The position numbers and the translations under genes are program-made. From assembly GCA_012719455.1 (NCBI GenBank), contig JAAYAJ010000003.1, forward strand, positions 1-58,828: a DNA stretch of 58,828 nucleotides, in the 5' to 3' direction. The stretch comes from Acidobacteriota bacterium. Lineage in GTDB: Bacteria; Acidobacteriota; UBA6911. Below are positions 4,096 to 52,930 of this stretch, one piece after another; position 1 is the stretch's first letter; the number at the start of each line of letters is the position of its first letter. Under the pieces are notes generated by a model. The model saw nothing but the letters and a program-made list of their open reading frames with translations, was not told the origin of the DNA and did no database searches.

Positions 4096-6156
4096 TCAGC
4101 TTCCCAGTTTTCCCCGTTCAGCCATGATGTCGGCCACCCGCTTCAGGCCGTAGCTCTCCAGGGTCCGGCGCGTCGGCCATCCATTCTCCTTGTCCCACCC
4201 TTCCAGTTGGTAATAGTGGGTCTTGAAATCCTCGACCCCCTGCTTGTCCAGGTACATGTCCGGGGCCTCGTCGTGGCGCCACTTGCCGTTTTCATAGATC
4301 GGCACGCCTCCCCAGAAGGTCATGCCGGAGGCGCCGGGACGGTACATGAACGGCGCGAAGACCTCCGCCTTCCGGTCGCGGCCGTGCATGACGCGGATGG
4401 CCCGTTCCAGGGTCCAGGTCTTCTGCCCGATCCGCATGGTGTCGGCGAAGGTGTCCTTCTTTCCGGTCACCGCGGTGTAGTACTTCATCTCGATTTCGGG
4501 ACTGATCGTTTCGAGGTTGGGGAGGAACATCTCGCAGAAAGCCATCGATTCATTCCAGAACGTGGCGTAATGGCGGCTCCACGCGACCTCCTTGGCCTTG
4601 TGGGGCGAATAGAGACCCGTCTTCCAGGCTTCCTCCCCCTTCCAGGCGTAATTGAACATGAAGATGTCGTTCTCGTAGGGAACCATCTTCTTCGCCAGCT
4701 CAATCAGGGCCTCCTCCGTCGTCTTCCCGCGCGGCTTGCCCACGGCGGTCACCAGGCCGTGCCAGCTCGGGTCGCCCGCGCCGAGCAGGTAGTTGTATGC
4801 CCATTCGGCGCTCGGCAGGGTCCAGTGCCCGGTAGCTCCCCACGCCGGGAAGCGGAGCGCGCCGCTCTCCAGGTCCTGTTCGAGCCGTCCCCACCTCTGG
4901 GCGGCGCGCATGCACCCTTCGGCCAGGGCGTCGCCGATTCCCACGCGCTTGGAGATCGCGTCGAGGAAAGCCAGGCGGAAGCTCAGTTCCCCCCACTGCT
5001 CCATCGGCAGCGGGGCGGAATCGATCCTCTTGCCCGGTCCCAGTTCGCCGATCCGGTAGAGGTAGCGGATATACCACCCGATCCCGGTCTCCACCGGCAC
5101 CTTCTTGTTGAAGAAATCGGGGGCGCCGGGGATGTCGGATATGAACAGGCCCAGGAAATGGGCCGACCAGCCGCTGGCGCCGTATTTCATCAGGGCCTGT
5201 GAGGCCAGTTCCGCCTCGGAGGCCGCCTGGGCCGACTGCGCTCCCCTCAGAGACTGCTCCTCGGGGTTGGCCAGCCAGTGCTGGTCCACGCACATGGTTT
5301 CCCCTGCATGGTAGACATTCCGGCGCCGGTCGGCCCGCAGGCAAGGGTGGCACGATCCCGATCCCGCGCTGGCCGGGGCGAAGCTCCCGGTCACGAGGCC
5401 GCCGCCCGTCATCTGCCAGATCCGGGCGTCCAGGAGGGCCTTGGCGTCGGCCATCTTCACCGTGCCCGATCCGAGCACGCTGACGGCCTTGAGGTTCTTG
5501 GCGCCGAAGACGGCGCCGAATCCACCGATGCGCCCGCTGACGCCGCTCCCCGTGATCAGGGCGGCCAGTCTCGAGCGGGCTTCCCCGACGGGGCCGATGC
5601 AGACGATCTGCGGGATCCCGGTGGTGTAGGTGTCCCCCAGTTGCATCCACTCCTCGCCGAAGCGGACCCTTCCTCCGACCATGTTGGCGATGCGACCCTG
5701 GGTTTCCCAGGTGTCCCGGCCCCAGAGATCCGCTGCGCTTTCAATTTTAACCTGGTCGTTGATGATGTTGATCCATACCGGCTGGTCGGCTTTCCCCTCC
5801 ACGACCACGCCGTCCCAGCCGGCCAGTTTCATCATGGTTCCGAACCGTCCGCCGAAATTGGTCCGCCAGAACTCGCATGTAGGGAAAGTCTCGGGTGATA
5901 TCCCGCAGACGCTCGTCCGGCCCGCGCCGGGCACCCCGGTGCCGGCCAGGGGGCCGACCATGATCGGGAGGACGTTCCGGGGATCGAAGGCATCCTTGAG
6001 GTCCCATTCGCCCGGGGCGACGGCGAGGTCCCAGAAGATGGCGGCCCCCATGCCGTAGCCCCCGCCGAATTCCTCGTACCGGGCGGTCTCTATTGTGGTG
6101 ACCTCCTTCGTCGACAGATTGACGCGCGCGATCTTTCCTGCGTATCCGTAACTCAT
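4096..6156 (-). CDS. Aldehyde:ferredoxin oxidoreductase family protein (tungsten/molybdenum bis-pterin enzyme, YdhV-like)
   Basis: This encodes 686 residues. Family hallmarks include GPLAGTGVPGAGR (about 68-80), FGGRFG (about 101-106) and GRIGGFGAVFGAKNLKAV (about 209-226). A CHPC motif at 269-272 probably supplies [4Fe-4S] ligands. AOR enzymes use a tungsto- or molybdo-bispterin cofactor to oxidise aldehydes or reduce carboxylic acids with ferredoxin. There is no signal peptide. The gene lies 16 bases after a four-cluster ferredoxin-like gene, the same pairing as ydhY-ydhV in enterobacteria, so electrons most likely pass to that partner. The substrate cannot be read from the sequence. Final Cys ligands are less certain; candidates are Cys in AEGCMRAA or MAFCEMF. 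Confidence 0.9.
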   Translation of the reverse strand: MSYGYAGKIARVNLSTKEVTTIETARYEEFGGGYGMGAAIFWDLAVAPGEWDLKDAFDPRNVLPIMVGPLAGTGVPGAGRTSVCGISPETFPTCEFWRTNFGGRFGTMMKLAGWDGVVVEGKADQPVWINIINDQVKIESAADLWGRDTWETQGRIANMVGGRVRFGEEWMQLGDTYTTGIPQIVCIGPVGEARSRLAALITGSGVSGRIGGFGAVFGAKNLKAVSVLGSGTVKMADAKALLDARIWQMTGGGLVTGSFAPASAGSGSCHPCLRADRRRNVYHAGETMCVDQHWLANPEEQSLRGAQSAQAASEAELASQALMKYGASGWSAHFLGLFISDIPGAPDFFNKKVPVETGIGWYIRYLYRIGELGPGKRIDSAPLPMEQWGELSFRLAFLDAISKRVGIGDALAEGCMRAAQRWGRLEQDLESGALRFPAWGATGHWTLPSAEWAYNYLLGAGDPSWHGLVTAVGKPRGKTTEEALIELAKKMVPYENDIFMFNYAWKGEEAWKTGLYSPHKAKEVAWSRHYATFWNESMAFCEMFLPNLETISPEIEMKYYTAVTGKKDTFADTMRIGQKTWTLERAIRVMHGRDRKAEVFAPFMYRPGASGMTFWGGVPIYENGKWRHDEAPDMYLDKQGVEDFKTHYYQLEGWDKENGWPTRRTLESYGLKRVADIMAERGKLGS

Positions 6157-43282: not shown

Positions 43283-43651
43283 GAATCCTCCCTTGAAACG
43301 TATCGGACACCGGGCCGCGAATGTCCAGAAAAACCCTTTTATCCCCGTCGATCCCCCTGCCAAAGCGCCGGTGCGTTTCCCCGGGGCACTCATCCGGATC
43401 GCGGCCATCAGCGCGGCCCCGCAAGCCCGCCGACCGGCGCGGCCGGGCGGAAGGCGTCGCCGACCCCGTACCCGGTTGGCGGACCCCGGCCAACCCCGCC
43501 TGTCCCGTCGATCCCCCCGTTCCATCCTCGAGGCCGAGAAGGAAGTATACCCCAGCCCACGGGACAGGTGGGAATGGGAGGAAAAAGTATACTGGATATT
43601 TACGTTAAAGGAGGAAAGATGACATAATGCCCCTTTTTGGGAGGTGGTGAT
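43283..43651. other. Intergenic region between divergent genes, with regulatory-looking sequence near its right end
   Basis: About 370 bases separate the barrel gene and the tetrapyrrole-methylase-like gene. I see no full gene. Two AAGTATAC-like sites lie at 43543-43550 and 43585-43592. A perfect ribosome site AAAGGAGGAAAG is followed by ATG-ACA-TAA at 43619-43627, a two-codon frame. No cobalamin or molybdenum-cofactor riboswitch core was recognised in this stretch. Confidence 0.5.
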
Positions 43652-44509
43652 ATGCGTGGATGGGGGCCCCGGAAAGGGCCATGGATCTTTTTGCTTGCAG
43701 CCTGGATCTGCCCCGGGCTCCTTTTCGGAGGCGAGGGACGATTGTCGCTCGTGGGGATGGGACCGGGCGATCCCGACATGGCGACCGTCAGGGCCCTGGG
43801 CCGGGTGCGGGAAGCCGATATCATTTATACCCTGAGCCCCGATCTCCTGGAGCGCTTCAGGGTGGAATTGAAAGGGAAGGACGTCCGGGATCTTTCCGGT
43901 TCTGGTGTTACCCGATATCACGCCCGTTCGGACAGGAACGATGCCGGCGCCGGGAAGGCCGCGGCGCCGGATGAGGGGAAAAAGACCCGCGACGGACTCG
44001 TTGGCGATGTGAAACGCGCCCTGGGCGAGGGGAAGAAGGTCGTGTTCATAGACAGCGGAGACCCGCTGATCTACGGCCCCTGGGCGTGGCTGCTCGGGGA
44101 ATTCGGAGACTCCGGCATGGAGGTCGTTCCCGGCATCAGTTCCTTCAACGCGGGGCTCGCCGCCCTGCGGCGCGACCCCACCTGGTCCTCCGATACCCAC
44201 ACCATAATACTGACCACCGACCGGACGCGGGGCAGGGACAGGCTGGAGAACCTGGCTGCGCACCGGTGCAGCCTGGTCCTGTTTACCCACAAAACGGAAT
44301 TTCCTGAGATGATGCGCAAGCTCAGGACCCAGTATCCGGAGACGACTCCGGTCGCCGTGGTATTCTATGCCGGTTACGAAGGTCGGGAGTCGGTGGTGCG
44401 CGGTAACCTAGAGACCATCGTGCCGCTGATGGAGCACAGGGACCTGCCGCTCGAACATATCGTTTTCGTCGGGGATTTCCTCGGCTTCAGCCTGGAGGGG
44501 GAGAGATGA
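43652..44509 (+). CDS. Tetrapyrrole (precorrin-type) SAM-dependent methylase-like protein with signal peptide
   Basis: This encodes 285 residues. The N-terminus (MRGWGPRKGPWIFLLAAWIC..., to about residue 28) has the form of a secretion signal. The fold of the tetrapyrrole methylase family follows: GMGPGDPD (35-42) is the conserved N-terminal SAM loop, GKKVVFIDSGDPLIYGP is the second block, and GMEVVPGISSFNAGLAAL the third. These are the blocks found in corrin and siroheme methylases that are cytoplasmic in other bacteria. A ribosome site GGAGGTGGTGAT precedes the ATG. The stop overlaps the ATG of the FmdE/TupA-like gene. Since SAM is not present in the periplasm, the export signal implies a binding rather than methylating role, which is an inference. 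Confidence 0.75.
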   Translation: MRGWGPRKGPWIFLLAAWICPGLLFGGEGRLSLVGMGPGDPDMATVRALGRVREADIIYTLSPDLLERFRVELKGKDVRDLSGSGVTRYHARSDRNDAGAGKAAAPDEGKKTRDGLVGDVKRALGEGKKVVFIDSGDPLIYGPWAWLLGEFGDSGMEVVPGISSFNAGLAALRRDPTWSSDTHTIILTTDRTRGRDRLENLAAHRCSLVLFTHKTEFPEMMRKLRTQYPETTPVAVVFYAGYEGRESVVRGNLETIVPLMEHRDLPLEHIVFVGDFLGFSLEGER

Positions 44510-45963
44510 AGGGGAGAATGATCTCACTTGCCATCGTGGCGGCGCTGCTCGCGCTCGTGCCGGCCCGGGACGGATGGGGGTCGGAATGCGCTTCCTGCCA
44601 CCAGGCCCAGGGGGTACAAGAGCGGGTGCCCGACATCGATCCGATCCGGATACGGACGGACGAGGGGGTCCGGAGCATCACCATCGGTGAGGCCTACAAG
44701 TTCCACGGCCACTCCTGCCCCGGGCTGATCCTCACCTTCCGGGCGACACAGTACGGCATCCGCCTCCTGTTCGGCGAGGAGGTTCCTGACCGGAAGGACC
44801 TCGAGATACTGACCCGGGCGCCGCTGGCAGGGGGGGTCGATTTCCTCGATCTCTTCATGATCGGCGAGGGACGGAAAGCCCCGACGCGGCTCCCCGCGGG
44901 AATGGCGCGCGACCGGAACCTGATCTCCTTCACCTTCATCCGGAAATCGACCCGGATGGCGGTGGATGTCCGGATGAAGCCGGAACACTACCCGGAGGAT
45001 TTCTTCGCCTACAAGAAGAAGCAGTCTGACGGCACACTCACTCCCGCGGATTGGGAGGTGCTCCATGGTTATATCAAGGGGATGATACTCGCTTTTCCCA
45101 CCCTCTCCCTGGAACACCTCTTCGGCGAACCACGTCCCTACTCGCTCCTCACCTGGGGGCAGGCGCTCCCGGCCCACGAGCCGGCGGTTCCGTCGGCGCC
45201 GGAGTATGGGCAGATCGTGGTGGCCACGGGAAGCCCGTACGAACTGGGGCTGGTCGACGAACTCGCCCGCGAGTTTTCGACCAGGCACGGGGGGGTGATC
45301 CGGTGCATCAAGACCCCTACCGGGCCCGGTCTCGATCTGGGCCGGAACGGGATGGTCCACATCACGATCGGTCACGAAGCGGAGGCCACGGCCCGCTTCG
45401 CCGCGGAGGGACACGCGGCCCGGAGAGCTGACCTGATGCACAACTTCACCGTCATCGTCGGACCCCGGGCCGATCCGGCCGGGATCGACGGGGTCCGGGA
45501 ACTAGCGGAGGCACACCGGAGGATCTTCCGCGCCGGGTCCCCCTACCTGTCCCGTGGAGACGGCGGCGGCATGGACCTGCTGGAACGGAAGATCTGGGGA
45601 TCCCTGGGTCTCGACCCCGCGGGATCCGCCTGGTACACGACCAGCGGTCGGTTCATGCTCGATTCGCTCCTCGATGCCGATGCGCGCGGACAATACCACA
45701 TGCTCGATTCCTCGACCTGGGCGATGCACAAGGGGAAGACGAAAAACCTCAGGCTCTTCGTCATGGGACCTCCCAACCGCTACGAGATCTGCCTTGTGAG
45801 CGCGGAGCGGCACCCCCACCTCTCCTACAACGGGGAGGTGGCCGGAGCGTTCTACGATTTTCTCACCGGTGAGGAGGGGCAGCGCGTGATCGCCCGGTTC
45901 GGCGTGGGGCAGTACGGCGAACCTCTCTACCACCCTGCGCGCAACGGGGTGGGGGGGAAGTAG
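44506..45963 (+). CDS. Secreted FmdE-like/tungstate-binding (TupA-like) fusion with CxxCH motif
   Basis: This encodes 485 residues. A signal peptide of about 26 residues is followed directly by CASCH (28-32), a CxxCH heme c or metal motif. Residues about 55-225 are FmdE-like, with YKFHGHSCPGL (His/Cys metal motif at 67-73). From about 235 on, the sequence has the order of TupA tungstate-binding proteins: VVATGSPYELGLVDELAREFS, later MHNFTVIVGPRADPAGI, SPYLSRGDGGG, WYTTSGRFM and ISRFGV-like GVGQYGEPLYHP at the end. I do not know this fusion from characterised systems. Coupling with a methylase-like gene suggests joint binding of metal, oxyanion and possibly a tetrapyrrole. Confidence 0.8.
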   Translation: MKGRMISLAIVAALLALVPARDGWGSECASCHQAQGVQERVPDIDPIRIRTDEGVRSITIGEAYKFHGHSCPGLILTFRATQYGIRLLFGEEVPDRKDLEILTRAPLAGGVDFLDLFMIGEGRKAPTRLPAGMARDRNLISFTFIRKSTRMAVDVRMKPEHYPEDFFAYKKKQSDGTLTPADWEVLHGYIKGMILAFPTLSLEHLFGEPRPYSLLTWGQALPAHEPAVPSAPEYGQIVVATGSPYELGLVDELAREFSTRHGGVIRCIKTPTGPGLDLGRNGMVHITIGHEAEATARFAAEGHAARRADLMHNFTVIVGPRADPAGIDGVRELAEAHRRIFRAGSPYLSRGDGGGMDLLERKIWGSLGLDPAGSAWYTTSGRFMLDSLLDADARGQYHMLDSSTWAMHKGKTKNLRLFVMGPPNRYEICLVSAERHPHLSYNGEVAGAFYDFLTGEEGQRVIARFGVGQYGEPLYHPARNGVGGK

Positions 45964-52098: not shown

Positions 52099-52930
52099 CC
52101 GTCTTCCGGGTGCCGATCAGGAGGTTGTAGGCTTCCTTCCGGGTGATGCCCCGCTGCCGGGCCACCGATTTCAGGGCCTCGTTGCGTGGCAGGCCGGACC
52201 GTTCCATCTCATCGGCGAGGTGCCGCTCGATTTCATCGGGGAAGGAGACGGGCGCAGCGGCGGCTTCCCCCCGGTCGACCACCAGGGTGATTTCCCCCTG
52301 GATCCTCGGCCTCCCGGCGATGATGGAGTGTAGTTCTGAGAGGGTGCCGGCTAGGAATTCCTCGTGGATCTTCGTCAATTCCCGCACCATGCACGCCTTT
52401 CGATCCCCCAGCACCTCGACCATGTCCCCGAGCGAGGCGAGCAGGCGGTGGGGGGCTTCGTAAAAGATCAGGGTGGCGGGCACCGGCGCCACTTCTTCGA
52501 GCCGGTTCCGGCGCGCGGAGGAGCGCGGGGGGAGGAACCCGGCGAAAAGGAAGGTGTCGGTTGGGAGCCCCGAGCCGACCAGTGCGGCGATGGCGGCCGA
52601 GGGTCCGGGGATCGGTGTGACGGGGATCCCCTCGCGCCGGCAGGCGGCCACCAGTGTGTACCCGGGGTCTGAGATCAGGGGTGTTCCGGAATCGCTGACC
52701 AGGGCGATCGTCTTCCCCTCGCGCAGAAGCTCCAGGAAGCGCCGGGTGCGGCTCTCCTCGTTGAACTTGTGATAGCTTTCCTTCGGCGTCGTGATCCCGT
52801 AGCGCGCGAGCAGCTTGGCGGTGTGCCGGGTGTCCTCGCAGGCGACCAGGTCCGCTTCCTTCAGGATGCGCAGAGCCCGCAGCGTGATGTCTTCCAGGTT
52901 CCCCAGGGGGGTGGCGACGAGGTAGAGCAC
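52091..52930 (-). CDS. rsmI: 16S rRNA (cytidine-1402-2'-O) methyltransferase
   Basis: This encodes 279 residues from GTG at 52930. LYLVATPLGNLEDITLRALR, CEDTRHTAKLL, ALVSDSGTPLISDPGY and PIPGPSAAIAAL are the RsmI signatures, all in the expected order. The enzyme methylates the 2'-O of C1402 in 16S rRNA with SAM. It lies seven bases after pdxJ, in an operon pdxJ-rsmI on the minus strand, probably also with gltX. Confidence 0.96.
   Translation of the reverse strand: MLYLVATPLGNLEDITLRALRILKEADLVACEDTRHTAKLLARYGITTPKESYHKFNEESRTRRFLELLREGKTIALVSDSGTPLISDPGYTLVAACRREGIPVTPIPGPSAAIAALVGSGLPTDTFLFAGFLPPRSSARRNRLEEVAPVPATLIFYEAPHRLLASLGDMVEVLGDRKACMVRELTKIHEEFLAGTLSELHSIIAGRPRIQGEITLVVDRGEAAAAPVSFPDEIERHLADEMERSGLPRNEALKSVARQRGITRKEAYNLLIGTRKTVT

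Follow-up and report, generated by a model that had tools for sequence, protein, structure and literature searches.

An exported tetrapyrrole-methylase-family protein and its CxxCH-FmdE-TupA-like partner in an Acidobacteriota bacterium, probably part of an undescribed envelope metal-scavenging system

A precedent for a tetrapyrrole protein of a biosynthesis fold outside the cytoplasm is found in CbiKP of Desulfovibrio, which is periplasmic, although its fold is that of a chelatase and not of a tetrapyrrole methylase (TPM). Among TPMs themselves, the closest described proteins to the one considered here are CbiF and CobM (PF00590, TIGR01465). With regard to nickel and cobalt, the nearest described system is the TonB-linked uptake system NikKMLQO, with its NikK/DUF4198 and NikL components (PMC545781, PMC2667541, PMC12537917). 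DUF4198 is secreted, binds Ni2+ with a Kd of 18 nM and has an N-terminal His (PMC12537917), and orphan NikK/NikL proteins have been noted as unexplained (PMC2667541). The pocket of TupA (5my5, 3lr1) is formed by H59, T9-11, S12, R118, T124 and D170 (PMC5517513), and FmdE domains (PF02663; 2glz, 2gvi) bind Ni/Zn, with His, His, Cys and a fourth ligand, Cys55, in the known structures (PMC2954224). No paper pairing a tetrapyrrole methylase with TonB-dependent receptors was found in the literature searched, nor was any described system of the shape set out below, in keeping with what a preliminary description of the locus had supposed.

The window, that is, the whole stretch of 58,828 nucleotides that was analysed, carries two overlapping genes, the first of which encodes a TPM-family protein. 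The coordinates, motifs and TGA/ATG overlap that had been given for both genes were exact on re-check. The features of the first gene are as follows.

43639..43649, + strand: Shine-Dalgarno-like stretch 5' of the TPM gene (from the sequence)
43652..44509, + strand: gene for the TPM-family protein, predicted to be exported, 285 aa (PF00590 match, predicted structure)
43652..43732, + strand: signal-peptide-like N-terminus, residues 1-27, a hydrophobic segment common to all exported relatives, with a lipobox in some
43754..43777, + strand: GMGPGDPD, SAM-site loop 1; G37 100% and D40 87% in 78 exported domains, the columns being kept in cytoplasmic enzymes also
44054..44077, + strand: SGDPLIYG, SAM-site loop 2; G136 100%, D137 97%, P138 95%
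44126..44152, + strand: VPGISSFNA, SAM-site loop 3; G161 100%, F165 92%, N166 86%, the F-N marking the exported clade

By both its full-length domain and its SAM-loop motifs the protein belongs to the PF00590 superfamily, the match covering residues 31-256 (E 1.9e-39; 136.3 bits against a gathering score of 27.8) and the PGISS block lying within 44126-44152. Ahead of the domain, R/K in the n-region is followed by a hydrophobic stretch, PWIFLLAAWICPGLLFG, such that the original reading of this gene as a signal-like N-terminus joined to TPM blocks stands. The export call for both window proteins is made from hydrophobicity and from lipoprotein-type signals in relatives, and for the TPM it is supported by the predicted signals of the window protein and of its nearest homologues. 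The AF2 model (pLDDT 90.5) has CbiF 2cbf as its best structural match (Z 23.8, 2.1 Å over 224 residues), and Pfam and NCBIfam likewise place CbiF/CobM nearest. Shared with CbiF/CobM are the fold, the SAM-loop motifs and the nearest tree position. Unlike them, the window protein appears to be exported, contains an insert between strands 2 and 3 as well as SFNA and AG signatures, lies outside cobalamin operons and falls below the cut-off of the CbiF/CobM equivalog TIGR01465 (105.7 of 259.65 bits). Since the SAM-pocket motifs are intact on alignment with exported and cytoplasmic domains, the protein may still bind SAM or a ligand resembling it.

A genome scan for TPM relatives gave 80 loci, in which domain starts and N-termini separate the exported TPMs from the cytoplasmic TPMs of cobalamin-type clusters; signal peptides are predicted in 60-odd exported TPMs, several of them lipoprotein-type, and most of the cytoplasmic controls start a few residues before the domain. 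A tree of 97 domains places the exported TPMs, from Acidobacteriota, Planctomycetota, Desulfobacterota, Geobacter and Spirochaetota, on one side of a branch with support 94/90, beside cytoplasmic CbiF/CobM/CobA-like rows, a placement that gives them a single origin. The SAM-loop columns are as well conserved in this clade as in the cytoplasmic enzymes (G37, G136 and G161 100%, D137 and P160 97%), and SFNA, K76 and AG (240-241) mark it out; many Desulfobacterota have two TPM domains per chain. The nearest homologues of the window protein are exported too and are not ordinary precorrin methylases placed in cobalamin operons, which agrees with the initial account of it as an exported protein. There are also exported proteins in which a TPM forms the C-terminal part, fused to an Oxidored_molyb-like region (L043:8583-10388; L047:6056-7819, with CxxCH; L114; L140).

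The second gene has the following features.

44506..45963, + strand: gene for a CxxCH-FmdE-TupA-like fusion, predicted to be exported, 485 aa, its start overlapping the TPM stop (ATGA)
44506..44580, + strand: signal-peptide-like N-terminus (from the sequence), with equivalents in L047, L048, L049, L064 and L101
44587..44601, + strand: CASCH, probable single heme c site as judged from sequence; CxxCH is present in all cassette members, Geobacter included
44701..44724, + strand: FHGHSCPG, FmdE metal motif (PF02663) with His, His and Cys as predicted ligands, from FmdE structures (PMC2954224)
44818..44841, + strand: APLAGGVD, the place where FmdE has its fourth ligand, Cys55, which the fusion has lost (comparison with FmdE relatives)
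45190..45930, + strand: TupA-like oxyanion-binding-protein domain (structure and sequence matches to 5my5 and 3lr1)
45223..45249, + strand: ATGSPYELG, replacing TupA TTTS (comparison with PMC5517513)
45547..45576, + strand: LSRGDGGGMD, replacing TupA SRGDxSGTH, with R118 kept and T124 changed to Met (comparison with PMC5517513)

The ATG at 44506 overlaps the TGA of the TPM gene at 44507-44509, and a Shine-Dalgarno-like GGAGG precedes both starts. Domain searches of the fusion return FmdE (PF02663, E 6.7e-7, 29.9 bits against 22.9) and PBP_like_2 (E 2.3e-13); the structure matches listed for the model all come from the TupA-like part, with none from the FmdE part. The fusion shares the FHGHxC metal motif with FmdE, but unlike FmdE it is predicted to be exported, bears an N-terminal CxxCH and has lost the fourth ligand. 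This Cys is present in FmdE relatives without CxxCH and absent from those with it, and its loss in exactly the CxxCH-bearing members points to a possible mutual dependence of heme site and FmdE metal site.

The sister species L045 and L046 keep the two-gene arrangement with both proteins at 83-87% identity. Moreover, dN/dS against the sister species G006 is 0.29 for the TPM and 0.27 for the fusion (0.18 for a neighbouring control gene), and purifying selection acts on both window genes; the pair is therefore not a product of chance. In L047, L048, L049 and the deltaproteobacterial MAG L064, each of the three modules (TupA-like, TPM and CxxCH-FmdE) has a gene of its own, the three genes being adjacent, from which it follows that the window gene is an FmdE-TupA gene fusion, and this fusion links the modules to one another. 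In other words, what had been described as a periplasmic pair is indeed two overlapping genes in the window, but is more properly a three-module cassette. In L047 and L049, TonB-dependent receptor genes and the cassette point away from each other; no such gene lies next to the window's own pair, and a receptor homologue of 55% identity is encoded on C102 of the host genome, away from the cassette.

The proposal that such genes should co-occur with TonB receptors is borne out in relatives, where 30 of 53 exported-TPM loci have a TonB-dependent receptor among their neighbours. DUF4198 is found at 23 of these loci, an amino-acid permease at 17, a NikL-like protein at 14 (assigned via NCBIfam NF058648 at scores below cut-off) and FmdE at 11. 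The same classes occur at 0/24 cytoplasmic-TPM loci, an imperfect control in that these are partly Gram-positive and thus without TonB receptors. A strict His-after-cleavage pattern is present in 18 of the 23 DUF4198 proteins. As in NikKMLQO, DUF4198, NikL-like proteins, TonB receptors and NikR-like operators occur among the relatives; unlike it, their constant element is the exported TPM, NikMQO is not seen near the exported TPMs, and the window cassette contains neither DUF4198 nor NikL, using FmdE and TupA-like modules instead.

The receptor region 3964-6105 of L098 and related TonB receptors linked with exported TPMs are near the FCYXU (Cys/selenocysteine) type, one of them reaching 719 bits against the NF049945 cut-off of 825. 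This type is a known selenoprotein family (PMC12013277, PMC13188914), and its link with exported TPMs is absent from those papers. A simple six-frame pattern for the Sec/Cys FCYXU motif returned nothing convincing, and solved TonB relatives gave no clear answer as to receptor substrate. Beside other TPM operons are encoded exported FmdE-like proteins whose N-terminal region is longer and which carry an HDHYCPG motif (L095:2534-4666, L079:10801-11949), and the TPM cluster of Desulfonema magnum (L106:4461-7891) contains three Acido-Lenti-1 RNA matches.

In terms of regulation, the published NikR consensus (PMC545781), which is deltaproteobacterial, was scored over 1.35 Mb of fetched sequence, with five motif models tried. 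A strict-pattern scan of the loci gave no match; sites appeared with the published consensus and mismatches allowed. At a threshold of at least 12/14 bases there are six NikR-like sites, five of which immediately precede exported-TPM operons (L074, L080, L081, L086, L089), in Planctomycetota and one spirochaete only; that of L089 lies inside an ORF whose start was probably called too early. The strict site is unique per genome in G245, G248 and G249, G247 has a second one before a DUF4198-like gene, and in G004 and G006 a NikR-like site falls between nikR and a TonB-type receptor gene. Across 19 genomes, a backward control pattern matched at three sites, where the real pattern matched at eight. 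A NikR gene is present in each of the four planctomycete genomes with sites and in the host genome, with no match in the spirochaete genome bin of L081. Upstream of the window pair no NikR-like site is present at 2 mismatches, and the Fur and Zur consensuses gave nothing above shuffles in relatives. The only riboswitch-linked operon is that of Dethiosulfatarculus, in which a cobalamin riboswitch (L098:3289-3476) lies 0.5 kb before the TonB receptor of the series TonB receptor-TPMx2-DUF4198-permease. No riboswitch was found in the window, L045, L047 or L049; the host genome contains six cobalamin riboswitches.

The exported TPMs are probably part of an undescribed envelope metal-scavenging system and not biosynthetic enzymes. 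The reading that we prefer, at a rough probability of 0.42, is that this system serves to capture a complex of nickel/cobalt, possibly a metal tetrapyrrole, and that the window cassette is its Acidobacteriota version. In this scheme, a complex of nickel or cobalt would cross the outer membrane through a TonB-dependent receptor and then be held by the exported TPM dimer, in its SAM pocket and ring trough. As ligand, the TPM fold would most naturally take a corrinoid or F430-like metal tetrapyrrole, or else a chelate that bears an adenosyl- or aminobutyrate-like group. The metal, or the whole complex, would next pass to partner proteins with His/Cys sites. In Desulfobacterota and Planctomycetota this partner would be the Ni-binding DUF4198, frequently accompanied by a NikL-like protein and a permease; in the window lineage it would be the fusion, whose putative heme could set the redox state, whose FmdE site could hold the metal and whose TupA-like cleft could hold an anionic group.

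Much of this develops the earlier suggestion that a methylase fold had been reused to bind a tetrapyrrole or other ligand while its partner held metal. Export and the metal theme fit that suggestion, but the SAM pocket is not visibly lost, making reuse one option. As to the metal, cobalt had been named for testing only, and the wider evidence points to nickel/cobalt. For the window we infer this theme from relatives, since the pair is flanked by no NikR-like site, no riboswitch and no TonB receptor, and its cassette is without DUF4198 and NikL. The preferred reading must also contend with SAM motifs that a pure binding protein does not need, with NikR-like sites limited to Planctomycetota and a single spirochaete whose own bin is without a NikR match, with a riboswitch seen once, and with control loci that, being partly Gram-positive, would have no TonB receptors in any case.

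The same intact residues (G37, G136, D137, P160 and G161, conserved as in cytoplasmic enzymes) raise the possibility, unlikely on balance, that the TPM is a periplasmic SAM-dependent methyltransferase acting on a non-cytoplasmic substrate, with SAM exported or taken from outside. In this regard, a second exported METHYLTRANSFERASE fold, that of class I methyltransferases with export signals, occurs in Acidobacteriota (L042:6457-7206, L166, L168 and L172, lipoprotein-type in the last three); that of the host, L042, follows an exported TPM and cytochrome c7. In G006 an exported ModA-like solute-binding domain is fused to a class I methyltransferase (L169:1501-2817; G006:C10, minus strand), with an AOR-family gene a few genes away. 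The common factor of two unrelated exported SAM folds with oxyanion-binding domains would be SAM binding, not tetrapyrrole binding, and because class I methyltransferases are also exported, one of them ModA-fused, a SAM or adenosyl ligand stays in contention. About as unlikely is the broader proposal that SAM or another adenosyl compound is used outside the cytoplasm: methyltransferase folds of class III (TPM) and class I, exported, with intact SAM motifs in both classes and linked to domains for oxyanions or for heme/metal, would serve methyl chemistry or ligand capture in the periplasm as a part of trace-metal acquisition. Against a periplasmic methyltransferase, no SAM pool is known in the periplasm, catalytic residues of the TPM fold vary between enzymes, and control by NikR-like sites and the presence of Ni-binding partners are more in line with uptake.

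Somewhat less likely again is the handling of an oxyanion, tungstate or other, which the TupA-like domain would bind and the FmdE-heme part would sense or reduce, with the TPM as an accessory. The TupA-like domain lies on TupA 5my5 with Z 29.1 (VIA) over 242 residues at 1.7 Å and matches 3lr1 at E 4.9e-32, and its equivalents of R118, S12, H59 and D170 are kept (PMC5517513). The claim of a full TupA-like domain alongside CASCH and FmdE thus holds for the domains and the fold, but not for the pocket: three of the seven TupA pocket residues are changed, T9, T11 and T124 becoming Ala, Gly and Met in all TupA-like members. The score against NCBIfam TupA (NF041772) is 63.6 of 400 bits, far below cut-off, in a comparison where the fusion architecture lowers no domain score. 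Also unlike TupA, the domain is fused to CxxCH-FmdE, and no tupBC lies next to the fusion gene; the TupA-like part is moreover missing from most exported TPM systems. Given the altered pocket and a canonical TupABC elsewhere in the host genome (L044), tungstate, the ligand at first envisaged, is doubtful. Tungsten-type AOR-family genes (PF01314) are abundant in the genus, with 8 matches in the host and 8 to 25 per genome across G000-G009, yet the co-occurrence check on them does not discriminate, as they are present in 9/9 genus genomes searched, cassette or not. One AOR-family match lies inside the window, at 4144-5028.

Improbable, too, is the uptake or storage of heme or another tetrapyrrole with no link to nickel or cobalt. 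A TPM fold with a CxxCH partner would suit such a role, and the Geobacter cluster receptors lean to heme/hemoglobin types (TIGR01785 4e-85, at 286.5 of 316.85 bits below the family cut-off; solved heme receptors 1e-27), but the other TonB receptors are near the FCYXU type or distant from any solved receptor, and NikR-like sites and DUF4198 point elsewhere.

The host genome has five PF00590 copies, namely four exported TPMs (the window copy, one on C6 and two on C13, one of these a fusion) and RsmI at 52331-52927; next to the C6 copy are encoded a cytochrome c7 with six CxxCH motifs and a secreted methyltransferase of class I. RsmI is the only cytosolic one, no cytosolic uroporphyrinogen or precorrin methylase being found in this genome (97% complete), which, as far as sequence goes, rules out an ordinary biosynthetic role for the window TPM. 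It is hardly credible, then, that the protein is a cytoplasmic precorrin methylase with a wrong start or a chance hydrophobic N-terminus: CbiF/CobM are its nearest families, but clade-wide export signals including lipoboxes, a context with no cobalamin operon and no other corrin methylases in the genome, and a score far under the CbiF cut-off refute this on the available sequence.

For the family as a whole, the annotation of an entire clade as ‘methyltransferases’ in public genomes is probably wrong, the members of this clade being exported and accompanied by TonB receptors, by Ni-binding DUF4198 and, in some, by NikR-like operators. The exported-TPM loci also give a context to the orphan NikK/NikL proteins and to the FCYXU-like (Cys/selenocysteine) TonB receptors. 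They raise the testable question of whether the bacterial periplasm is a place where nickel or cobalt is scavenged from tetrapyrroles, or where SAM is used.
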